Positions 2,085-32,459 of a stretch of DNA of 45,322 nt are shown one piece after another (the first letter of the stretch is position 1; every line of letters begins with the position of its first letter). Where the stretch lies: contig JAJZIM010000019.1 of NCBI GenBank assembly GCA_021810565.1, positions 1 through 45,322 of the forward strand. The letters run 5' to 3'. Position numbers and translations under genes: made by a program. The DNA comes from Bacillota bacterium (lineage in GTDB: Bacteria > Bacillota > Sulfobacillia > JAJZIM01). The notes beneath the pieces were generated by a model, which had not been told where the DNA came from, made no database searches, and saw only the letters and a list, made by a program, of their open reading frames with translations.

Positions 2085-2138
2085 TTCATGAATGCTTCAC
2101 GCGGCTTTCATCACGGATTAAGGATGGTCTGCGAGGCT
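2085..2138 (+). promoter_or_regulatory. Direct-repeat array 1 (OmpR/PhoB-type box) and possible -10
   Basis: Four pentamers, TTCAT (2085), TTCAC (2096), TTCAT (2107) and TTAAG (2118), are spaced exactly 11 bp apart. This is one helical turn, the layout bound by tandem OmpR/PhoB-family regulators. Ten bases after the last pentamer lies GAGGCT (2133-2138), which keeps only the A and T of a -10 box. The array precedes the glycosidase-UbiA-DprE operon. Three similar arrays occur further right with the same distance to a possible -10. The repeats are directly visible; binding by the response regulator at 6870 is inference. Confidence 0.72.
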
Positions 2139-2154
2139 GAAGGCAGCATGGGAG

Positions 2155-3861
2155 GTGAGCCTCACGCCGCATCGTCCTCGCCGGTTCCGCTTGCGCCTTG
2201 GCCGGGTGCTGCTCCTGGCCCTGCTGCCGGTGGGGCTGTGGCTGTGGCTGCGCCCGTCATCCCATGAGCAGGCCGAGCCGGTGCCGTCGACGTCAATTGC
2301 CTCCATCGTTCATGCCCTACCCGCCAACGTGCGCCTTGCGGGTACCCCCGCCGGCCCTGCCGCCGCGGTGGCCCTCGCCGGTCCCGCCGCTCAGCCGCGC
2401 CGGGTGTTGCTGGACGCAGCGGTGGGCGGCGCATCCGCCCGCCTGGAGACCGCCTCGGTGCGCTGGTCCGGGAACCGCCTCACCTCCCTGCGGCTCACCG
2501 GCCCCTTCCTCCGAGCCACCTCGGCCGCGCAAACCGACCTGGGGACCGCCGCCGGCTACATCTTCTACGCCACGCAGGTGGCCGGCCAGTATCAAACCGT
2601 CACCCTCGCCGTCCCGGCCGGACGCACCTGGGTCTTCGCCTTCCGCCGTCCGCAGGCCGCCGTGCGCCTGTCCTGGTCCCCCGGCGCCACCCCGTCCTTG
2701 GCGGTGTATCGCCGCGGGTCCCATGGCCCCTGGCGGCGGGCCACCATCCGGCTGAACCGGGGCACTCCCGGCAGCTCCTCGCCGGCCTTGGCCGAGGTGC
2801 GCGCCCCGGTCAACCACAACTCTCTCTTCATCCGTCTGGTGGAGGGAGTACGCCGGCACCTGGGGTCCCCCCTGGTGGCGGGCATAGAGAACGCCTGGTA
2901 CTCCTTGGCGGACCTGGTCCATCGCAGTCTGTACGCCCTGGGCCATCATCCGGTCCACGTCCACGCCTCCAGTCCCGCCCCGACGGCCACCCGCACCCGC
3001 AACACCGGCCTGCCGGGGAACCTTGCCGTGCCCGCCGCCTGGCCGCAGGCCACCGGGGAAGGGGTGTGGCAGCCGGTCGGCCCGTCGGTGCACGGGGTTC
3101 CGGCCATGGAGCGCACCTTCCTGCATCCGGACCCCGCCCGGCCCTACGCCACCGTGGATCTGGTCTGGATCAACCCGCGCGCCCTGCATCTGCACCTGGT
3201 GGCCGGCACCCGCCAGCCCCGCGCCGCCTCGGGCATCCACGGTCCCGGCGAGATCCCCGTCTCGTCCGCCCTGCGCCGCCGGGTGGTGGCCGCCTTCAAT
3301 GCCGGCTTCAAGACCGCCAGCGGATCCTTCGGGGAGCAGGTGAACGGGGAACTCTACACGCGCCCCGTGCCCGGACTGGCCACCTTGGCCATCTACCGCA
3401 GCGGTCGGGTGGCTCTGGGCACCTGGGGCCGGCAGGTGGGCGCCGCCCCCAGCCTGGTATCTTTCCGCCAAAATCTACCTTTGATCGTGGACCACGGAAA
3501 GCTCAGCCCTCTCCTGGACCAGCCCAGCGCCTGGGGCGCGGTGGTGGGCAACTCGACCTTTGTTTGGCGCTCGGGCATCGGGATCACCCCCCAAGGCGAC
3601 CTCATCTACGCCGCCGGGGTACCCCTGTCCGCCGCCACCCTGGCCCGCTCCCTGCTGCAGGCCGGCTGTGGGCGCGCCATGCAGCTGGACATCAACAGCT
3701 ACTGGGTGACCTTCAACTTCTACCGTTGGACGGGCACCACCCTGCACGGCCACAAGCTGCTGCCCTCCATGGTGCGCTCCTCCGACCGCTACCTGCGGCC
3801 GGACACCCGGGACTTCTTCTATCTCACCCTGCCGTCCGCCGGAGGGAGGTCGGCCGGATGA
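2155..3861 (+). CDS. Membrane-anchored phosphodiester glycosidase (NAGPA)-like protein
   Basis: A 568-residue protein with an arginine-rich N-terminus, one hydrophobic helix (about residues 16-35), a long unassigned region (about 40-320) and a C-terminal phosphodiester glycosidase-type domain (about 335-560). The domain shows NAGFKTASGSFGE and, near the end, AMQLDINSYW, resembling the NAGPA/DUF2233 family that cleaves sugar-1-phosphodiesters. The active part probably faces outward. The start is a GTG whose only Shine-Dalgarno (GGGAGG) abuts it directly, so a later start is possible. It overlaps the next gene by four bases (ATGA), which suggests translational coupling with the UbiA-DprE genes and a role in a cell-surface phosphodiester polymer. 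The substrate is unknown. Confidence 0.78.
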   Translation: MSLTPHRPRRFRLRLGRVLLLALLPVGLWLWLRPSSHEQAEPVPSTSIASIVHALPANVRLAGTPAGPAAAVALAGPAAQPRRVLLDAAVGGASARLETASVRWSGNRLTSLRLTGPFLRATSAAQTDLGTAAGYIFYATQVAGQYQTVTLAVPAGRTWVFAFRRPQAAVRLSWSPGATPSLAVYRRGSHGPWRRATIRLNRGTPGSSSPALAEVRAPVNHNSLFIRLVEGVRRHLGSPLVAGIENAWYSLADLVHRSLYALGHHPVHVHASSPAPTATRTRNTGLPGNLAVPAAWPQATGEGVWQPVGPSVHGVPAMERTFLHPDPARPYATVDLVWINPRALHLHLVAGTRQPRAASGIHGPGEIPVSSALRRRVVAAFNAGFKTASGSFGEQVNGELYTRPVPGLATLAIYRSGRVALGTWGRQVGAAPSLVSFRQNLPLIVDHGKLSPLLDQPSAWGAVVGNSTFVWRSGIGITPQGDLIYAAGVPLSAATLARSLLQAGCGRAMQLDINSYWVTFNFYRWTGTTLHGHKLLPSMVRSSDRYLRPDTRDFFYLTLPSAGGRSAG

Positions 3862-4730
3862 GTACCATCGGTGCCCTGTGGGAGTTGGCCCGGCCCCGGC
3901 AATGGTCCAAGAACGCCTTCGTGCTGGCGGCACCCCTTTTCTCCGCCCGGCTGGCAAGTCCGCCCGTCTTGGAACGTTCTTTGCTGTTGGTCGCGGCCTT
4001 TTGCCTCCTATCCAGTGCCGTCTACGCCGCCAACGACCTGTGGGACCGGCGGTGGGATCGAGGCAATCCTTTGAAGCGCCACCGCCCGCTGTCCTCGGGG
4101 AGGATCACTCCCGGGGCCGCCGTTTCCTTCGCCCTGGCCCTCGGCTTCCTGGGTCTGGGGACAACTTGGTGGTCCGGCCCCTCGGCCCTCCCTCCCGCGG
4201 CGGCCTTCCTGGGTCTGAACCTGCTCTATTCGCTGGTGCTCAAAGGTCTCGTGCTCATCGACGTCTTCGCCATCGCGGCCAGTTTCTTGCTGCGCGCCTT
4301 GGCAGGCGCGGCCCTGGTCGGCGTAGCCGCCTCCCCTTGGCTGTTCATCTGCACCATCTTGCTGGCCCTGTTTCTGGGCTTCGCCAAACGCCGGCACGAA
4401 CTGTCCCTGCTGGGGGAAGCCGCCGCCAGCTGCCGACGCGTCCTGGGGGAGTACTCCCTCGCCTTCCTGGACCATCTCCTGACCGTCCTGGTAGCGTCCC
4501 TGCTCATGGCCTACAGCCTCTGGGCCCTCTCGCGAACCCCCGCCCACTCCCCCTACCTGATCGGTACCGTTCCCCTGGTGGCCTACGGCATCTTCCGCTA
4601 CCTGTACCTGGTGCACCGCCGGCAGGCCGGGGCGGCCCCGGAGGAGGTGCCGCTGCGGGACCGCCCGCTCCTGGCCACCGTGCTCCTGTGGGGTGCCGCC
4701 GTGAGCGTCCTGACCTATCTGCCCCATTAA
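3858..4730 (+). CDS. ubiA: UbiA-family prenyltransferase, decaprenyl-phosphate phosphoribosyltransferase-like
   Basis: A 290-residue polytopic membrane protein of the UbiA superfamily. The first aspartate-rich motif is visible as NDLWDRRWDR (D60, D63, D67). The second conserved loop is represented by LIDVFAIAASFLLR. Because the next two genes encode DprE1- and DprE2-like enzymes, the best functional match is decaprenyl-phosphate 5-phosphoribosyltransferase, which joins PRPP to a polyprenyl phosphate. The start ATG overlaps the preceding stop (3858-3861) and has a strong GGAGGGAGG upstream. No separate phosphatase for the phosphoribosyl product is seen in the cluster. The family is clear; substrate specificity rests on gene context. 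Confidence 0.85.
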   Translation: MSTIGALWELARPRQWSKNAFVLAAPLFSARLASPPVLERSLLLVAAFCLLSSAVYAANDLWDRRWDRGNPLKRHRPLSSGRITPGAAVSFALALGFLGLGTTWWSGPSALPPAAAFLGLNLLYSLVLKGLVLIDVFAIAASFLLRALAGAALVGVAASPWLFICTILLALFLGFAKRRHELSLLGEAAASCRRVLGEYSLAFLDHLLTVLVASLLMAYSLWALSRTPAHSPYLIGTVPLVAYGIFRYLYLVHRRQAGAAPEEVPLRDRPLLATVLLWGAAVSVLTYLPH

Positions 4731-4747
4731 GTCCGGGAGGGATCACC

Positions 4748-6097
4748 ATGATGATTTGGAAGCCCGAGCGCCTGGCCGGCTGGGGCAATCACCCGTCCCA
4801 GCTGTGCCGCGTGGCTCGGCCGGAGCGGCTGCGGGAACTGCGGGAACTCTCCGTCGCCCCCGGGGGCACCCTGGCCTGGCGCGGCCTCGGCCGCAGCTAC
4901 GGGGATGCCAGCCTGAATGCCGGAGATGGCGTGGTGCTGCTGGGCCGCCTCAACCGCTTCCGGGAGTTCGATCCCTCCACCGGCCTCCTGGAGTGCGAGG
5001 CGGGAGCATCGCTGGCCGACATCATCGCCTGTTTCCTGCCTCGCGGCTTCTTCCCGCCGGTGACGCCGGGCACCCGGGCCGTCACCGTGGGCGGGGCGGT
5101 GGCCTGCGACGTCCACGGCAAGAACCACCACCGGGACGGTGCCTTCTCGGCCCACGTGTCGGAGCTGACCCTGCTCACCGTCGGAGGACAGTTGCTGCGC
5201 TGCTCCCGGCGGGAGCACCCCGACGTCTTTTGGGCCACCGTCGGCGGCATGGGCCTGACCGGCTGCATCGTCACGGTGCGCCTCGCCTTGCAGCGGGTAT
5301 CCTCGGCCTTCCTGACGGTGGTCCAACGACGCACCGCCGACTTGCAGCAGACCATGCAGCAGCTCGCCACCCTGGACGCCGAGCACCGGTATACGGTGGC
5401 CTGGGTGGACGGCATGGCCGGCGGCCGCTCCCTGGGCCGCGCCGTGGTGAGTGGCGCCGACCACGCCTCCGGGGCCCCAGCGGGCCGAGGACCGCTCTCG
5501 CCGCCGGCACACCGGAGGGGGACGGTGCCGTTTCCCGCTCCCAACTGGTTCCTGTCGCCGACCATGGTGCGCGGCTTCGGCGCCCTGCGCTACCACCGGT
5601 CAGCGGACGGTGCCCGCTATCTGGCGGACTTCGACGCCTTCTTCTATCCTCTGGACTCCCTCGCCCATTGGAACCGCCTGTACGGTCGCCGCGGTTTCCT
5701 GCAATATCAATTCGTGCTCCCGGAGGCGACGGCGCTCGAGGGGATGACCCGCGTGCTGGAGACCCTGCACCGGGCCGGGCACCCACCCTTCCTGGCCGTC
5801 TTGAAACGCCTGGGGGCGGCCGGGGAAGGCCTGCTCTCCTTTCCCCGCGCCGGCTACACCCTGGCGCTGGATCTGCCGGTGGGTCCGCCGGAGCTGTTCG
5901 CCTTGCTGCGCCGCCTGGACGAGGAGGTGGCCTTCCGCGGCGGTCGGGTCTACCTGGCCAAGGACGCCCGGTTGGCCCCCGACCTCTTCCGGGCCATGTA
6001 TCCGCAGTTGCCGGCCTTCCTGGCCCTGAAAGAGCGTCTGGACCCGGACGGCCGTCTCGCCACCTCCCTCTCCCGTCGGCTGGGGATCACGGCATGA
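4748..6097 (+). CDS. dprE1: FAD-binding oxidoreductase, DprE1-like (polyprenylphosphoryl-ribose 2-oxidase)
   Basis: A 449-residue FAD-linked oxidase. The N-terminal FAD-binding part shows RGLGRSYGDASLN (about 45-57) and CDVHGKNHH (120-128), both close to the mycobacterial DprE1 signature. The C-terminal substrate domain ends with LAKDAR (K405, matching the essential lysine of DprE1) and RLDPDGRLATSLSRRLG. DprE1 oxidises the 2'-hydroxyl of decaprenylphosphoryl-ribose, the first half of its epimerisation to the arabinose lipid donor. The cysteine attacked by benzothiazinones (Cys387 in M. tuberculosis, within NICVDFP) is alanine here (A373, in TLALDLP). The Shine-Dalgarno GGGAGGGAT lies upstream of the ATG at 4748, and the gene overlaps dprE2 by four bases. 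Confidence 0.9.
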   Translation: MMIWKPERLAGWGNHPSQLCRVARPERLRELRELSVAPGGTLAWRGLGRSYGDASLNAGDGVVLLGRLNRFREFDPSTGLLECEAGASLADIIACFLPRGFFPPVTPGTRAVTVGGAVACDVHGKNHHRDGAFSAHVSELTLLTVGGQLLRCSRREHPDVFWATVGGMGLTGCIVTVRLALQRVSSAFLTVVQRRTADLQQTMQQLATLDAEHRYTVAWVDGMAGGRSLGRAVVSGADHASGAPAGRGPLSPPAHRRGTVPFPAPNWFLSPTMVRGFGALRYHRSADGARYLADFDAFFYPLDSLAHWNRLYGRRGFLQYQFVLPEATALEGMTRVLETLHRAGHPPFLAVLKRLGAAGEGLLSFPRAGYTLALDLPVGPPELFALLRRLDEEVAFRGGRVYLAKDARLAPDLFRAMYPQLPAFLALKERLDPDGRLATSLSRRLGITA

Positions 6098-6828
6098 GCC
6101 GCGGTACCTTTCTGGTGGTCGGGGCCACCTCCACCATCGGCCGATGCGTGGCGCGGCGCCTGGCCGCGGAGGGCTGCGGGCTTTGTCTCACCGGCCGCGA
6201 CCCGGAAGAGCTGGCGGCCGTGGCAGCGGATATCGCCGTCCGCTGCGGCCGCCCGCCGCTTGCCGTGCCTTTGGAGGCCCGGGACTTCGGCTCCTACCCC
6301 GCGCTCATGGATGCCTGCGGTGCGATCCCCGGCGGGTTGGCCGGCGCGGTGATCACCTGGGGAATGCCGGAGGATCCCCTGGCCCGCACCGACCCCGCCG
6401 CAACGGCGCAGGTCGTCGAGGTGAACCTGACGGCCCCCGCCCTCTTGCTGGAATGGCTGGCCGACCGGCTGGGGCCGGGATCCTGTCTGGCGGTGCTTTC
6501 CTCGGTGGCGGGCGACCGCGGGCGGGCGGACACCCGCCTTTACGGCGCCGCCAAGGCCGGCCTGAACGTGTTCCTGGCGGGTCTGCGGGCCCATTGCGAC
6601 CGCCGGGGGATCCGGGTGCTGACGGTGAAGCTGGGGCGGGTGGATACCCGGCTGAGTTTCGGCCTGGCCGGAGCCTTCTTGGCCATATCGCCGGAGTCGG
6701 CGGCCAAGGCCGTGGTGCGCTCTTTGCGGCGCGGGCGAGGCACCGTGTACATCCCCGGTTGGTGGCGCTGGATCATGCTGGCCCTGCGGTCCCTGCCGGA
6801 GGGCCTCTTCCGACGCCTCCCCCGATGA
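6094..6828 (+). CDS. dprE2: Short-chain dehydrogenase, DprE2-like
   Basis: A 244-residue short-chain dehydrogenase/reductase. It shows the N-terminal nucleotide-binding motif GATSTIG (about residues 10-16), an SSVAG catalytic serine segment and YGAAK as the Tyr-xxx-Lys catalytic pair. DprE2 reduces the keto intermediate made by DprE1, completing ribose-to-arabinose epimerisation on the lipid carrier. Its place directly after the DprE1-like gene, with a four-base ATGA overlap, supports that assignment over a general SDR. The C-terminus carries a hydrophobic stretch (WWRWIMLALRSL) that could hold it to the membrane. The stop at 6826-6828 overlaps an alternative ATG of the response regulator. 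Confidence 0.85.
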   Translation: MSRGTFLVVGATSTIGRCVARRLAAEGCGLCLTGRDPEELAAVAADIAVRCGRPPLAVPLEARDFGSYPALMDACGAIPGGLAGAVITWGMPEDPLARTDPAATAQVVEVNLTAPALLLEWLADRLGPGSCLAVLSSVAGDRGRADTRLYGAAKAGLNVFLAGLRAHCDRRGIRVLTVKLGRVDTRLSFGLAGAFLAISPESAAKAVVRSLRRGRGTVYIPGWWRWIMLALRSLPEGLFRRLPR

Positions 6829-6844
6829 ACCAGCCGTCTACAAG

Positions 6845-6853
6845 TGATACAAT
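6845..6853 (+). promoter_or_regulatory. Possible extended -10 promoter before the response regulator
   Basis: TGATACAAT fits an extended -10 (TG, one base, TACAAT). No good -35 is seen. Transcription would start near 6860, close to the Shine-Dalgarno of the response-regulator gene, so it would give a very short leader. It could provide expression of the two-component genes independent of the upstream operon. Confidence 0.3.
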
Positions 6854-6869
6854 CCAGGAGAGCGAGGTG

Positions 6870-7562
6870 ATGGACATGCCCACGCCGCAAAACGTGCTGG
6901 TGGTGGAAGATGAGGAGCACCTGGCCCACATGTTGGAGCTGGAGCTCACCCATCAAGGCTATCGGGTAGGCAAGGCGGCCACCGGGCCGGAAGGCCTGAG
7001 CATGGCCCTGGCGGGTCCTTGGGACGCCGTCATCCTGGACCTGATGCTGCCGGAAATGGACGGTCTGTCGGTGTGCCGCCACATCCGGGAGCGCTCCGCG
7101 GTGCCGATCATCATCCTGACGGCCAAGGGCGAGGTGGAGGACCGGGTATCCGGCCTGGATGCCGGCGCCGACGACTACCTGCCCAAGCCGTTCCATCCCG
7201 AAGAGTTGCTGGCCCGCATCCGGGCCGTGCTGCGCCGCCGCGCCCGCGGCGACCGGCCGGAGGAGGAGTTGCAGGTGGACGACCTGGTGCTGAACCTGAA
7301 CACCCGGGAGGTGCGCCGGGCCGGTCAGCTCGTGCACCTCACCCGCAACGAGTTCGAGCTCTTGCGCTTCCTCATGGACAACTCCCCCTGGGTGATGACC
7401 CGGGAAATGATCCTGGAGCGGGTGTGGGGCTACGACTACCTGGGTTCCAGCAACATCATCGACGTGTACATCCGCCGACTGCGCAGCCGGGTGGACGATC
7501 CGTTTCCCGCGAAATTGATCCACAGCGTCCGCGGCGTGGGCTATGTACTCAAGACGCTTTAG
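6870..7562 (+). CDS. OmpR/PhoB-family response regulator
   Basis: A 230-residue transcription regulator. The receiver domain (about 8-120) has the acidic pocket VVEDEE (E13, D14), phospho-acceptor D57 in ILDLMLPEMDG, the conserved threonine in ILTAKG and lysine in YLPKPF. The winged-helix DNA-binding domain (about 135-228) ends with the typical DVYIRRLRSRVDD and IHSVRGVGYVL. The start ATG at 6870 is favoured by AGGAGAG at 6856-6862; an in-frame ATG at 6825 overlapping the dprE2 stop is possible. It overlaps the kinase gene by 20 bases. Regulators of this class bind direct repeats spaced 10-11 bp, and four such arrays surround this gene; I infer they are its targets. The stimulus is unknown. 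Confidence 0.95.
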   Translation: MDMPTPQNVLVVEDEEHLAHMLELELTHQGYRVGKAATGPEGLSMALAGPWDAVILDLMLPEMDGLSVCRHIRERSAVPIIILTAKGEVEDRVSGLDAGADDYLPKPFHPEELLARIRAVLRRRARGDRPEEELQVDDLVLNLNTREVRRAGQLVHLTRNEFELLRFLMDNSPWVMTREMILERVWGYDYLGSSNIIDVYIRRLRSRVDDPFPAKLIHSVRGVGYVLKTL

Positions 7563-8970
7563 CGGTCTTTATAGCATCACCGTCCGGGTCACCCTTTGGT
7601 ACGCCCTGGTACTGTCCCTGGTCCTGGCGGCCACCGGGACAGCCGGCTTCTTGCTGCTGAAGCAGGCGCTGCTGGAGCAGGCTGCGGCCAGGGTCCAGGC
7701 GCGGGCCATGGAGGTCGGCCAACTGGTGGAGGGCGTGCGCAATCCCGGCCGCGAGGACGTGGAGAAGGTGGGCCTGCACAGCCGCACCCTGGTCTTCTCC
7801 CGGGGCCCCGGCGGATTGCTGGTGCAAATCAGCGGTCCAACCGGGCAAAGCGTCAACCGATCCCCCGGGCTGACCCACGCCCTTCCCTTGCCGCCCCACC
7901 CCGACCGGCCGGCCGACAACGTGCTGGCCTACGGCGCCGGCCGCATCGCCTGGGCCAGCCGGCCCCTGTACAACCGCGGTCAGTTGGTGGGATCCGTGCA
8001 GGTGGCCGCCCCCCTTTCCCAGCTTTATGCCCAGTTGCGCCTGATGGAACGCGGCCTCCTGGAGGCATACGGTCTGGGACTACTCCTGGCCCTCTTGGGC
8101 GGCTACCTTATCGCCCGCCGGGCGCTGACGCCCGTGCGCGCCATGACCCGGGCGGTGGAGTCCGTGGCCATCGACCGTCTGGACCGCCGGCTGCCCCTGG
8201 CCGGACCGCCCGACGAGCTGCACCGGCTGGCCGCCGCCTTCAATCACATGCTGGACCGACTGGCTCAGGGGGTGGATGCCCAACGGCAATTCGTAGCCGC
8301 CGCCTCCCACGAGCTGCGCACCCCCCTGTCCGTCATCCAAGGCTACATGGGCATCCTGGCCCGCTGGGGCAAGGAGGACCCCCAGATCCGAGAGGACGCC
8401 GTGGATATCATCCAAAGCGAGCTGGGCCGCACCCGTCGCATGGTCAACAACCTGCTGCTCTTGGCCCGGGAGGACGCCGGGCATGCCCCCGGCGTCACCC
8501 GGCTGGATCTGACCGCCTTGGTCCGGGAGGTCTGCCAGGAGGCCCACGCGCTCCGGGAGGAGGTGGAGCTGACCGCCGAAGGGTTGGTTGCCTTGGAGGT
8601 GTCCGGAGACGCCGAGCGGCTCCGCCAGGCCATCCTGGCCGTCCTGGACAACGCGCTGAAATATACCCCGGCGGGGGGCAAGGTGACCGTGTCGCTGCGC
8701 CGTGAGGGTTCCCTGGCCGCGCTGACCATCGCCGACACCGGCATCGGCATCCCCCCGGAGGCCCTCCCTCATATCTTCGACCGCTTCTATCGGGCGGACC
8801 CGGCCCGCAGTCGGCGCACCGAAGGCTTCGGCCTGGGCCTGTCCATCGCCCGTCTGCAGGTGGAGCGCCACGGCGGCCAAATCGCGGTGCGCAGCGAGCC
8901 CGGGCACGGCAGCACCTTCACCATCCATCTCCCGCTCGCCCCGGACCGCTCCTTCGCTGCCAAGGCTTAA
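7543..8970 (+). CDS. Membrane sensor histidine kinase
   Basis: A 475-residue kinase, partner of the response regulator it overlaps by 20 bases. Order: first membrane helix (about 16-39), an extracytoplasmic sensor region of about 125 residues without recognisable motif, second helix (about 170-188), HAMP linker, and the phospho-acceptor segment ASHELRTPLSV with His256. The catalytic ATPase domain follows: N box around D369 (DNALKYTP), G1 DTGIGIP at D398, then FDRFYRADPAR and GFGLGLSIA. There is no PAS domain, unlike many phosphate-sensing PhoR proteins, so a phosphate signal should not be assumed. The TAA stop codon lies inside the first repeat of direct-repeat array 2. Confidence 0.95.
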   Translation: MYSRRFSGLYSITVRVTLWYALVLSLVLAATGTAGFLLLKQALLEQAAARVQARAMEVGQLVEGVRNPGREDVEKVGLHSRTLVFSRGPGGLLVQISGPTGQSVNRSPGLTHALPLPPHPDRPADNVLAYGAGRIAWASRPLYNRGQLVGSVQVAAPLSQLYAQLRLMERGLLEAYGLGLLLALLGGYLIARRALTPVRAMTRAVESVAIDRLDRRLPLAGPPDELHRLAAAFNHMLDRLAQGVDAQRQFVAAASHELRTPLSVIQGYMGILARWGKEDPQIREDAVDIIQSELGRTRRMVNNLLLLAREDAGHAPGVTRLDLTALVREVCQEAHALREEVELTAEGLVALEVSGDAERLRQAILAVLDNALKYTPAGGKVTVSLRREGSLAALTIADTGIGIPPEALPHIFDRFYRADPARSRRTEGFGLGLSIARLQVERHGGQIAVRSEPGHGSTFTIHLPLAPDRSFAAKA

Positions 8971-9020
8971 CTTTTTGTTCACTCCGCTTTCACGCTCCTT
9001 TAAGGCACAGCCGCTATCCT
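8967..9020 (+). promoter_or_regulatory. Direct-repeat array 2 and -10 before the PepSY gene
   Basis: Pentamers TTAAC (8967), TTCAC (8978), TTCAC (8989) and TTAAG (9000) repeat with an exact 11-bp period. TATCCT (9015-9020), a fair -10 box, begins 10 nt after the last pentamer, the same spacing as in arrays 1, 3 and 4. No sigma-A -35 is present; the repeats occupy that place, as expected for an activator-dependent promoter. The first repeat contains the stop codon of the kinase gene. Confidence 0.8.
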
Positions 9021-9091
9021 GACCATGGCACCGCGGTGAGGAGGTGTCCTGCAGGGTGCCGCATCAGGGAACGTGGAAAGGAGTTGTTGGT

Positions 9092-9772
9092 ATGGTGAAG
9101 CGCAAGATACTGATGCTTACGCTGGCCGGTGCGCTGACTTTGGGGGCGACGGGAGCCGGCCTGGCCCTGGCCTCCGTACCTCCGACCAGTTCCGCCGTCG
9201 CGACGGCGCAGGCCCGAGACGCGGCTTCGCAAGGTGAGTCATCCATCCGGGGCAGCCTGCCGCTGTCCACCCTGACCGCGATCACCCCGTCCCAGGCCGG
9301 TCAGGCGGCGGTGGATGCCGTCCCCGGGAGCACGGTCCGCAAGATCAAGTTGGAGGGCCACCGCGGCTATCTGGTGTATAAGGTGAAGCTCACGACTTCC
9401 CAGGGGCACCGCAAGGCCTTCGTGGACGCCGGTTCCGGTCGGGTGCTGGCCGTGGTCACCCCCACCGGAAAAGACGGCGCGACGCCCTCCTTCACCGGCA
9501 GCCTGTCCCTGTCGGCGCTGGCCAAGATCACGCCCACCCAGGCCGGCCGCGCCGCCCTGGGGGCCTTCCCGGGAGCCACCGTGCTGCAAACCCGCCTGCA
9601 CACCGCCGACGGCGCGCTGGTGTATAAGGTGAAGCTGCGCACCGTGGCCGGTAAGACGGCCCACGCTTGGATCGACGCGGGCAGCGGCCGGGTGTTGCGT
9701 ACCAAGACGGCGCACCCCGAGAGCGTCGAAGCCCCCGAGCAATCCGCCACGCATCCTCATCAAGACCGCTGA
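9092..9772 (+). CDS. Exported double-PepSY domain protein
   Basis: A 226-residue protein with a lysine/arginine N-terminus and a hydrophobic segment (about 5-27) that fits a signal peptide or membrane anchor. It has two PepSY-like repeats of about 65 residues, each running from an SLxLSxLxxITPxQAG motif to VYKVKL and DAGSGRVL. PepSY domains are often found next to two-component systems and are thought to modulate extracytoplasmic proteins or proteases; no catalytic residues are seen. The ATG at 9092 is chosen because GGAAAGGAG lies eight bases upstream; a longer reading from 9044 has no ribosome site. The promoter carries direct-repeat array 2, and a strong terminator follows. Function is unproven. 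Confidence 0.85.
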   Translation: MVKRKILMLTLAGALTLGATGAGLALASVPPTSSAVATAQARDAASQGESSIRGSLPLSTLTAITPSQAGQAAVDAVPGSTVRKIKLEGHRGYLVYKVKLTTSQGHRKAFVDAGSGRVLAVVTPTGKDGATPSFTGSLSLSALAKITPTQAGRAALGAFPGATVLQTRLHTADGALVYKVKLRTVAGKTAHAWIDAGSGRVLRTKTAHPESVEAPEQSATHPHQDR

Positions 9773-9780
9773 AGCCGCCC

Positions 9781-9811
9781 GGGCGGGAGGAAACAGCCTC
9801 CCGCCCTTTTT
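9781..9811 (+). terminator. Intrinsic terminator after the PepSY gene
   Basis: A perfect 10-bp stem (9781-9790 with 9797-9806), a six-base loop and five T residues (9807-9811). The T run also supplies the first bases of direct-repeat array 3. Confidence 0.93.
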
Positions 9812-9874
9812 CACCCTTATTTAAGGGGATTTTAAGCCGCTTTTCACCGGCTATTCATGCCTTCCTGGGACAAT
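9810..9874 (+). promoter_or_regulatory. Direct-repeat array 3 (five repeats) and -10
   Basis: Five pentamers, TTCAC (9810), TTAAG (9821), TTAAG (9832), TTCAC (9843) and TTCAT (9854), keep an exact 11-bp period. GACAAT (9869-9874), matching a -10 box in four of six positions, starts 10 nt after the last one. This is the longest of the four arrays. It lies 31 bp before the ATG of the small exported protein. Confidence 0.82.
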
Positions 9875-9905
9875 GAGCAAGCAGTCGTCCCGAAAGGGGG
9901 GATAA

Positions 9906-10154
9906 ATGATGCGCAAACGTTGGCAGTTGATCCTGGCCGGCAGCGTCCTCCTGGTCTCCCTGGGTGGAGCGGGCTGGGCCTTCGCCGGGTCTCCCGCCAC
10001 GACCCCGGCCACCCAGGTTCAATCGGGAGCGGACCTGCAGCAGGGAGCCAATCTCCAGCAGGGACCCAACCTCCAGCAGGGACCCGACGTGCGGTCGAGC
10101 GCTCCCGACGGCACCGAGGCCGTCGAGTCCCACCCGGCGGAAGCGAACGGTTGA
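9906..10154 (+). CDS. Small exported protein with QQG repeats
   Basis: An 82-residue protein I do not recognise. The first 27 residues form a signal peptide (MMRKRW, a hydrophobic core, then an alanine/glycine-rich end at AFAGSPA). The mature part holds three imperfect copies of an LQQGxN/P hexapeptide (about 44-59) and an acidic tail. A ribosome site (AAAGGGGGG) precedes the ATG; a second ATG follows immediately. It stands alone between the five-repeat regulatory array and a terminator, so it is probably one of the most directly controlled outputs of the two-component system. Function unknown. Confidence 0.72.
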   Translation: MMRKRWQLILAGSVLLVSLGGAGWAFAGSPATTPATQVQSGADLQQGANLQQGPNLQQGPDVRSSAPDGTEAVESHPAEANG

Positions 10155-10165
10155 TCCCATCCCTT

Positions 10166-10196
10166 CGGAGAGGCAACGCTGCCTCTCCGATCTTTT
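10166..10196 (+). terminator. Intrinsic terminator after the small exported protein
   Basis: A perfect 10-bp stem (10166-10175 with 10180-10189), a four-base loop ACGC and a T-rich tail (ATCTTTT). Confidence 0.9.
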
Positions 10197-10326
10197 GCCT
10201 CCTGCGTTACTCAGCCTTGATCTTTTGGAAAAAGCCCCGCCCCACCGCCGGAGCAGACGCCATCCCCCCCGATTTTCCATCTCATCCGCCATAATTTTAG
10301 TGCCAGCCCTGGGATTGGCCCCTTTT

Positions 10327-10358
10327 TTCATAGTACTTTCATCTTCCTAGTGTATCAT
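10327..10358 (+). promoter_or_regulatory. Two-repeat regulatory box and -10 before murE
   Basis: Two TTCAT pentamers (10327 and 10338) are 11 bp apart, and TATCAT (10353-10358) lies 10 nt after the second, exactly as in arrays 1-3. Only half an array is present, so regulation by the same factor is plausible but weaker. The rest of the 10197-10386 spacer shows no gene. Confidence 0.5.
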
Positions 10359-10395
10359 ATGCAATGACTCGGAAAACCTCGGGAAGGTGGTGCCC

Positions 10396-11862
10396 ATGGC
10401 TTCCGTCAGTCCGCCATATGCCGCCGACGAGACAACCTTGCTGCCCCCCGAGTTGGGCCGACTGCTCTCCCACCAGGTGCGGGGCGTCACCTGCGATTCC
10501 CGCGCCGTGCGGCCCGGGTATCTCTTCGTGGCCATCCGCGGTTTCCGGGACGACGGCCATCGCTACCTCGCCGACGCCGTGGCCCGCGGCGCGGCAGGCG
10601 TGGTAGTCGGCGGCCCCTGCGCCGACCCGGGCGTGCCTTGCTGGCAGGTCCCGGACCCCCGGCGGGCCCTGGCGCTGGCCGCCGCCGCCTTCCACGGCCA
10701 TCCCTCCCGCCGCCTCACCCTGATCGGGGTGACCGGCACCAACGGCAAGACCTCCGTCAGCTATCTCCTGGACAGCATCTTCCGACAGGACGGGAGGCGC
10801 ACCGGCCTCTTGGGCTCCGTGGTCTACCGCATGGCCAACGAGGCCGCCGTGGCCCACCTGACCACCCCCCAGGCCACCGACATCCAGGCCTTCTTGGCGC
10901 GCGCCCTGGCCCGGGGCACCGACACGGTCACCATGGAGGTATCCTCCCACGCCCTGGCCCTGGAGCGGGTCACCGGCTGCGCTTTCGATGCCGCCGTGTT
11001 CACCAACCTGAGCCGCGACCATCTAGATTTCCACCCGAGCATGGAGGAATATTTCCGGGCCAAGGCACGCCTTTTCCACCAGCCCGGCGCCCCTCTGGCC
11101 GTGATCAACCAGGACGACCCCTACGGTCGGCGGCTGGCCGCCTTGGCCGCGGGCCGCGTGCTGCCCTACGGCCTTACGAACCCGGGCCCGCTGCGCGTGG
11201 AGCACCCCTCCCCCGGCTGCCGCGGCTGGCGCTTCACCCTGCGCTTCCCCGCGGCCCGCGAGGAGGTATGCCTGCCGCTGCCGGGCAGCTTCAGCCTGTG
11301 CAACGCCCTGGCCGCCGCCACCACCGCCTGGGGTCTGGGCCTTTCCCCCTCCCTCATCGCCCAAGGCCTAACCCGGGTCGGCCCCATCCCCGGCCGGTAC
11401 GGTGAACGGCGCGTGGGCGGCGTGCTGACCGTGGTGGACTACGCCCACAACCCGGACGGGCTCACGCAGGTGCTGCGCTGGTACCGGGAGCGCACCCCGG
11501 GACGGCTGATCGCCGTCTTCGGTGGCCGCGGCGAGCGGGACCGGGGCAAGCGACCACAGATGGGCTCCTTGGCCTCCGAGCTGGCCGATCTGGTAATCAT
11601 AACTTCCGACAGCCCCGGGCGGGAGGATCCGGCCGCCATCTCCGCCGAGGTGGCTCGCGGCATCCGCCGCGGCAATTTCCGGATCATCCTGGATCGACGC
11701 CGCGCCGTCGCCGCCGCCATGCGCCACGCCCGCCGCGCCGACACGGTGGTCATCACCGGCCGCGGCCAGGAGGCCTTCCAGAAGCTGCCCGCAGGGGAAA
11801 CGCCGTTCCCCCGGGACCGGGAATTGGTCGCCCTCCACCGCCCCCCCGGGCGCTCCGGTTAG
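10396..11862 (+). CDS. murE: UDP-N-acetylmuramoyl-tripeptide synthetase-like Mur ligase
   Basis: A 488-residue cytoplasmic Mur ligase that adds the third residue of the peptidoglycan stem peptide. Visible: the UMP-binding N-terminal domain with CDSRAVRPG; the ATP-binding loop GVTGTNGKTS; the HLTTP and MEVSSHAL segments; NLSRDHLDFH; and the C-terminal domain with VDYAHNPDGL. The usual DNPR motif that recognises meso-diaminopimelate is replaced by DSPG (in TSDSPGREDP), so the amino acid added is uncertain. The ATG at 10396 has GGGAAGG eight bases upstream. The gene stands apart from any division/cell-wall cluster, so it may be a second MurE or a specialised paralogue. The promoter has half of the local regulatory array. 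Confidence 0.9.
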   Translation: MASVSPPYAADETTLLPPELGRLLSHQVRGVTCDSRAVRPGYLFVAIRGFRDDGHRYLADAVARGAAGVVVGGPCADPGVPCWQVPDPRRALALAAAAFHGHPSRRLTLIGVTGTNGKTSVSYLLDSIFRQDGRRTGLLGSVVYRMANEAAVAHLTTPQATDIQAFLARALARGTDTVTMEVSSHALALERVTGCAFDAAVFTNLSRDHLDFHPSMEEYFRAKARLFHQPGAPLAVINQDDPYGRRLAALAAGRVLPYGLTNPGPLRVEHPSPGCRGWRFTLRFPAAREEVCLPLPGSFSLCNALAAATTAWGLGLSPSLIAQGLTRVGPIPGRYGERRVGGVLTVVDYAHNPDGLTQVLRWYRERTPGRLIAVFGGRGERDRGKRPQMGSLASELADLVIITSDSPGREDPAAISAEVARGIRRGNFRIILDRRRAVAAAMRHARRADTVVITGRGQEAFQKLPAGETPFPRDRELVALHRPPGRSG

Positions 11863-32213: not shown

Positions 32214-32459
32214 TCCTCAAAAAGAAAAAAACGCCCCGTCCAAGGGACGAAACTTGCGGTTCCGCGGTACCACCCTGTTTGACCCGAAGGTCCTCTCGCT
32301 CCCCCGCTAACGGTGGGGAACCGTCCCGCCTACTCACCGTGGCTTTCAGCCGGGCGCTCCCGGGCGTATTCGACGGGCGGCCGACGCCGGGATCCCAGCC
32401 TCCCCGGCTCTCTGGAGCCACCTCTCCCGCCTACTTCCCCCGCTCATCGCTTTTCCTTT
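32214..32459 (-). promoter_or_regulatory. T-box riboswitch leader, tyrosine-type
   Basis: About 245 nt of leader, read right to left. It has the Stem I landmarks GATGA, GGGGGAAGTAG and CCAGAGAGCC (32456 to about 32405), and a specifier region GAATACGCCC in which TAC (32368-32366) is the likely tyrosine codon. It also has a small hairpin ACGGT-TCCCC-ACCGT and the hallmark T-box AGGGTGGTACCGCGG (32276-32262). A terminator stem CGTCCC/GGGGCG follows, with seven T residues (about 32245-32225). TGGT in the T-box fits a tRNA with discriminator A, as in tRNA-Tyr. Uncharged tRNA-Tyr would favour read-through into aroF-tyrA-aroA. Confidence 0.9.

Follow-up and report, generated by a model that had tools for sequence, protein, structure and literature searches.

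Four pentamer arrays with an 11-bp period as predicted operators of a PepSY-linked two-component system in a Bacillota bacterium

Background

Here four arrays of short direct repeats are described within the genome of a Bacillota bacterium (class Sulfobacillia), together with the genes that surround them, among which are those of an OmpR/PhoB-type response regulator and its sensor histidine kinase. The stretch of DNA analysed (termed here the window) is 45,322 nucleotides long and corresponds to one complete contig (JAJZIM010000019.1; C5 below) of a 3.18-Mb, 115-contig assembly (GCA_021810565.1; G000). An earlier note on this DNA had pointed to pentamers of the form TTMAN (that is, TTCA or TTAA followed by any base) that recur before four transcription units, and had read them as the mark of a self-contained envelope regulon governed by the local regulator.

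Arrays and genes of the block

Each array is a row of TTMAN pentamers (termed here boxes) at a strict 11-bp period, and each is followed at a fixed distance by a hexamer that resembles, to a varying degree, a -10 promoter element:

2085-2122, +: array 1, four boxes at period 11 (TTCAT 2085, TTCAC 2096, TTCAT 2107, TTAAG 2118)
2133-2138, +: -10-like hexamer GAGGCT (weak), starting 10 nt past array 1
8967-9004, +: array 2, four boxes (TTAAC 8967, TTCAC 8978, TTCAC 8989, TTAAG 9000)
9015-9020, +: -10 hexamer TATCCT, starting 10 nt past array 2
9810-9858, +: array 3, five boxes (TTCAC 9810, TTAAG 9821, TTAAG 9832, TTCAC 9843, TTCAT 9854)
9869-9874, +: -10 hexamer GACAAT, starting 10 nt past array 3
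10327-10342, +: array 4, two boxes (TTCAT 10327, TTCAT 10338)
10353-10358, +: -10 hexamer TATCAT, starting 10 nt past array 4

There are thus 15 boxes in four rows, ten of the TTCA and five of the TTAA type, and the starts, box numbers and period that the earlier note had given for them are correct to the base. Its further statement that a possible -10 element begins exactly 10 nt after the last pentamer holds for the spacing at all four arrays and for three of the hexamers (TATCCT, GACAAT and TATCAT), which are plausible -10 boxes; the fourth, GAGGCT, is weak. The block yielded no standard sigma-70 promoter with a -35 element, which fits activator-dependent promoters, and an Rfam scan detected no RNA element at the arrays. 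Array 1 lies between the glycosidase gene that opens the block and a P-type ATPase gene running the other way, and the first box of array 2 contains the stop codon of the kinase gene. The genes and terminators downstream are as follows:

2155-3861, +: exported or membrane protein with a phosphodiester glycosidase (NAGPA) domain, encoded at the head of the array-1 operon (PF09992, E=3.7e-4, under the gathering score)
3858-4730, +: UbiA-family protein, decaprenyl-phosphate phosphoribosyltransferase-like (PF01040; NF008977, 229.8 bits, cut-off 234)
4748-6097, +: DprE1-like flavin adenine dinucleotide (FAD) oxidase (PF01565; NF053785, 421 bits, cut-off 500)
6094-6828, +: DprE2-like short-chain dehydrogenase (PF00106; NF053786, 140.7 bits, cut-off 250)
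6870-7562, +: OmpR/PhoB-type response regulator, recognition helix SNIIDVYIRRLRSRVD (PF00072, 1.2e-30; PF00486, 2.1e-25; tree and recognition-helix alignment)
7543-8970, +: sensor histidine kinase (HAMP, HisKA, HATPase), its gene overlapping that of the regulator
9092-9772, +: exported protein with two PepSY domains (PF03413 in two stretches; start ATG at 9092 after AAAGGAG)
9781-9810, +: intrinsic terminator of the PepSY gene, its T-run extending into box 1 of array 3
9906-10154, +: small exported protein of 82 aa with GxNLQQ hexapeptide repeats (no Pfam or NCBIfam match)
10165-10190: intrinsic terminator of the small-protein gene
10387-11862, +: murE, UDP-MurNAc-tripeptide synthetase (TIGR01085, 435 bits, cut-off 257)

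The UbiA-family, DprE1-like and DprE2-like proteins (3858-6828) resemble the enzymes of decaprenyl-phosphoryl-arabinose (DPA) synthesis, all three scoring under the NCBIfam cut-offs. The six genes from the glycosidase to the kinase are co-directional, overlap or lie no more than 41 nt apart, and have no intergenic terminator between them. Since the operon that starts with the glycosidase gene continues through those of the regulator and the kinase, array 1 probably drives a single six-gene operon and, through it, the synthesis of the regulator itself; this probable autoregulation had been missed by the earlier note, which had correctly placed the regulator inside the block (the domains PF00072 and PF00486 establish its type).

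Period and spacing compared with chance

The period is specific. Within the window, 13 TTMA pairs lie 11 bp apart, as against 0-2 at nearly every other period from 5 to 33; the other enriched periods are 22 and 33, both of which are multiples of 11. A pattern of three successive boxes gives 7 overlapping matches in the window and none in 100 dinucleotide shuffles, while two boxes followed by N12 and A-NNN-T (that is, by A at position 2 and T at position 6 of the -10 element) occur at exactly four sites, for which the shuffle mean is 0.03 and the maximum 1.

Pattern searches of the whole genome turn up the triple box in only 11 places; three belong to the window, seven to contig C14 and the last to C57. 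A reversed-pattern control has no match. All 11 are intergenic, apart from array ends that overlap a stop codon or the final few bases of a gene; that the pattern should occur as often within coding sequence as in promoters, an outcome named beforehand as counting against the arrays, is therefore not the case. A box pair followed by N11 and TANNNT occurs seven times (two in the window, five on C14), again with zero matches in the reversed control. These near-empty shuffles and empty controls uphold the argument that the geometry is not fortuitous. Among the loci that were read, none of the TTCA-N7-TTCA pairs outside the window has TANNNT at the matching distance; across the class, the strict TTCA pattern is only slightly more frequent than its reversed control, a count that is not used as proof.

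Conservation of the layout among relatives

Relatives of the kinase were taken from the same class and from named species. Most loci of the class have the array layout, with slightly different letters, either right after the kinase gene or in front of the gene for the regulator or the PepSY protein, as the following examples illustrate:

G022: TTCAG-N6-TTCAG-N10-TATGCT
G034: CTCAG..TTCAC..TTCAT-N10-TACGCT
G004: CTAAC..ATAAC..TTAAT-N10-TACAAA
G014: TTAAC..TTAAT-N10-TATACT
G024, first site: CTAAT..TTAAT-N10-TAGAAT
G024, second site: CTAAT..TTAAG..CTCAT-N10-TATATT
G026: CTAAA..TTAAG..TTAAG-N10-TATATT

When 25 promoter regions from related regulator/kinase loci are searched over a grid of seven periods and nine spacings, a perfect box pair with a -10 element is found in 8 of the 25 at period 11 and spacing 10, whereas each of the remaining 62 combinations gives 0-1 and the 100 shuffle sets give none; this test was not blind, inasmuch as the YTMA form of the box was chosen after inspection of the regions downstream of kinase genes and a position weight matrix scan, and its controls are the grid and the shuffles. 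The spacing is thus conserved in related genomes, the comparison that had been proposed as a check.

The genes behind the arrays recur as well. A PepSY gene occupies this position in G035, G026, G024, G004, Sinanaerobacter and Brevibacillus (the last two with the -10 elements TATGAT and TATCAT, respectively), a gene for an HtrA-type protease with PDZ domains does so in G022, G010 and Paenibacillus, and the regulator gene itself in G024, G004, G014 and G034. Several Paenibacillus species carry TTTAAG-N5-TTTAAG, which is identical to the CiaR box discussed below, before an htrA-like gene that precedes a regulator/kinase pair; in these loci (L126, L149, L150, L152 and others) the array lies near 5400-5600 and is followed at spacing 10 by CATGAT or CAAGAT.

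The closest comparison is with G001 (locus L074), the only genome of the same order that was compared, whose regulator is the sister of the window regulator in the tree (support 96/91). Its gene order is array, small protein, regulator, kinase and murE, the last directly after the kinase gene, so that the main elements of the window block stay together. The G001 small protein (GANLQQGANLQ) aligns with that of the window (E=3e-9 for the pair) and, in a search of 60 relatives, this positional orthologue was the sole convincing match; the four best other matches, when read, had neither the NLQQG repeat nor an array.

The candidate regulator and a proposed mechanism

The reading preferred here, with a probability of roughly 0.8, is that the four arrays are tandem operators of the regulator encoded at 6870-7562, which, once phosphorylated via the kinase, would activate four envelope promoters. 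The most likely binder of the arrays is this regulator, since its gene is central in the block, its orthologue travels with an array, and it has a recognition helix (SNIIDVYIRRLR) of the VYI/VYV type, which occurs in most of the relatives with arrays as well. The helix published for CiaR, VVEVYVSKVRKKL, shares the feature.

PhoB provides a precedent for how such an array could be read: regulators of the OmpR/PhoB type bind head-to-tail, each 11-bp repeat taking one monomer, and are able to recruit sigma (PMC4415409). The scheme that we infer for the window, in which the regulator binds, activates rather than represses, answers an envelope signal and receives feedback from the PepSY protein, would run as follows. 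The kinase (7543-8970) would sense a disturbance of the envelope and bring about phosphorylation of the regulator, which would then occupy the arrays in head-to-tail order with a monomer on each 11-bp helical turn; the boxes nearest the promoter would stand in for the -35 element, and the regulator would recruit RNA polymerase to the -10 element 10 nt downstream. From array 1 this would switch on the six-gene operon that runs from the glycosidase to the kinase, resulting in positive autoregulation; from array 2, the PepSY protein, which probably serves the kinase as a partner in feedback or sensing; from array 3, the small exported repeat protein; and array 4 would place murE under added control.

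Several points weigh against the regulator as the common activator of the four promoters. GAGGCT at array 1 shares only A2 and T6 with TATAAT and would be a poor -10 element. A DprE1 homologue was sought at E<=1e-20 in 40 relatives of the class and found in none, so that no counterpart of the array-1 promoter was found for comparison (the DPA-like gene set was perhaps acquired by the lineage). In G001 no array is readable before murE, which there seems to be co-transcribed. In the 25-region test, the choice of the YTMA form and of three regions that precede PepSY or small-protein genes was made after some sites had been seen. Finally, the genome encodes six further full-length OmpR-type regulators, any of which could be the binder.

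Other arrays of the same genome and alternative explanations

A second set of arrays, built of TTAA boxes that keep to the 11-bp period and the 10-nt spacing of the window arrays, lies at C14:44189-56460, C14:99440-99476 and C57:875-911. The genes after these arrays encode PBP-type phosphate-binding proteins, a permease, an MFS transporter, a phosphoesterase and a PhoB/PhoP-like regulator, and the arrays constitute the predicted Pho regulon of this genome. Since the constant geometry is found here too, as well as in published CiaR promoters, it does not serve, as had been supposed, to mark out the regulon of the window.

This identity of period and spacing, along with the five TTAA boxes among the 15 of the window, gives some weight to the view that the window arrays are themselves Pho boxes of the PhoP-like regulator (C57:107-766), in which case the block would belong to a phosphate-starvation regulon and serve wall remodelling; indeed, Pho regulons often take in wall genes. 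Yet the third base of the box separates the two sets sharply, the ratio of C to A being 10:5 in the window and 0:29 at the Pho sites (Fisher p=1.2e-6); the recognition helices differ as well (SNIIDVYIRRLR in the window regulator, IRTVDVHIRHLR in the Pho-linked one); and in relatives the geometry accompanies regulator, kinase and PepSY genes rather than phosphate genes. Pho control of the block is therefore considered unlikely.

Somewhat less likely still is that another OmpR-type paralogue (such as those on C81, at C14:3393 or on C91) binds the arrays, the local two-component system being a mere neighbour. The six paralogues mentioned above make this conceivable, but the arrays are clustered within 8 kb around the 6870 regulator and its kinase, the orthologous regulator of G001 has an array adjoining, and the window regulator groups with other PepSY-linked systems (though the deeper fork of the tree is weakly supported). 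That the arrays merely reflect the composition of AT-rich promoters in a genome of 70% G+C, TTMA and TANNNT being AT-rich words, is very improbable and was rejected, given an enrichment limited to the 11-bp period and its multiples, shuffles and reversed controls at or near zero, and a geometry kept in relatives.

Regulation of the block through its own regulator is consequently retained as the preferred reading, with one amendment to the idea of a local envelope regulon. A mixed array (TTAAC, TTCAC, TTAAT and TTCAT, then TAGGGT at the matching spacing) is present at C14:100968-101021 (5969-6022 of locus L021, minus strand), some 330 nt before a second uppP/BacA-like gene, and may be either a distant member of the window regulon or a Pho site. 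With such an array elsewhere, it is not certain that the regulon is self-contained; that term was slightly too strong, even as the arrays keep the 6870 regulator as their best candidate.

Contig C6 carries GTAAC-GTAAC-TTAAC followed after 10 nt by TACGCT (6484-6526 of locus L084, plus strand), between the gene of a third OmpR-type regulator and a divergent gene for a secreted protein; this is apparently a further regulon that shares the 11-bp/10-nt geometry.

Comparison with known systems

The closest published layout is that of the CiaRH regulon of Streptococcus (box NTTAAG-N5-TTTAAG), for which the search rule is TTTAAG-N5-TTTAAG with TATAAT at a distance of ten (PMC3091779). The two systems have in common the 11-bp period, a TTAAG/TTMAN-type box, the distance of ten nucleotides to the -10 element and an OmpR-type regulator with a VYV/VYI-type helix (only the published CiaR helix was compared); moreover, HtrA genes lie behind arrays both in the CiaR system and in those of the relatives. 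They differ in that CiaR promoters have two boxes whereas the window arrays have up to five; in the third base of the box, which is mostly C in the window and A in CiaR; and in their targets, which are csRNAs (cia-dependent small RNAs) for CiaR and, in the window, the PepSY gene, a DPA-like wall-precursor operon, the small repeat protein and murE. The conserved final G of the CiaR box is seen in 4 of the 15 window boxes (TTAAG), most of the others being TTCAC or TTCAT.

Pho boxes of PhoB/PhoP consist of two 11-nt direct repeat units (PMC4415409) and, like the window arrays, are head-to-tail units placed before the -10 element; the PhoP core of S. coelicolor, GTTCACC, even has TTCAC in common with the window boxes. 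The Pho regulon of the present genome differs in its all-TTAA boxes, its recognition helix and its phosphate-gene targets; conversely, the window boxes are not of the TTAA type and the genes downstream are envelope genes. ArcA sites, which are direct-repeat arrays at 11 bp with two to five repeats, including many-repeat forms of 3-5 (PMC3798270), resemble the window arrays in their multiple repeats but have no fixed promoter position, in contrast to the strict 10 nt found here. CutR of Streptomyces was considered as a secretion-stress analogue and rejected, its motif, TAWATAAA, being unlike the window boxes.

PepSY proteins encoded beside two-component systems are widespread, and one of them, DbfQ, acts on the sensor of the kinase (PMC12714742). 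The window resembles DbfQRS in that a small exported PepSY protein is encoded beside an OmpR-type regulator and kinase (here within four genes of them), which by analogy makes a feedback role of the window PepSY protein on its kinase plausible. DbfQ, however, has one PepSY domain and lies upstream in the dbfQRS operon, whereas the window protein has two, and its gene lies downstream behind an array of its own.

Taken together with those sequence features of tandem direct-repeat operators in the OmpR/PhoB family that are found in the window (a regulator with receiver and Trans_reg_C domains, at least two repeats at 11 bp, and 10 nt to the -10 element, which is weak at array 1), these comparisons indicate that the 11-bp/10-nt geometry is the grammar of the whole family and not of the window regulon. 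The operator layout, in other words, is real and conserved, and is of a type already known from CiaR and PhoB. What appears to be new is the gene content: a DprE-like operon, murE and a GxNLQQ protein under a PepSY-linked two-component system, a system on which a literature search found no publication. It is a tentative proposal, held with less confidence than not, that these loci represent an undescribed family of envelope-stress two-component systems spread across Bacillota lineages, in which a single TTMAN layout controls the system itself, a PepSY protein acting in feedback and lineage-specific envelope genes, and which is told from the Pho regulon of the same cell mainly by C versus A in the box.

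The block offers a sequence-defined, testable regulon in a little-studied bacterial lineage, one that would link a PepSY two-component system to peptidoglycan synthesis (murE) and to DprE-type precursor synthesis. With the Pho arrays it forms a natural pair of regulons having the same geometry and different box letters, which suits study of how OmpR/PhoB paralogues are kept separate, and the promoter layout could help to annotate uncharacterised two-component regulons across Bacillota.

Elsewhere in the window, a T-box leader is located at 32240-32456 on the minus strand (Rfam RF00230, 95.8 bits).

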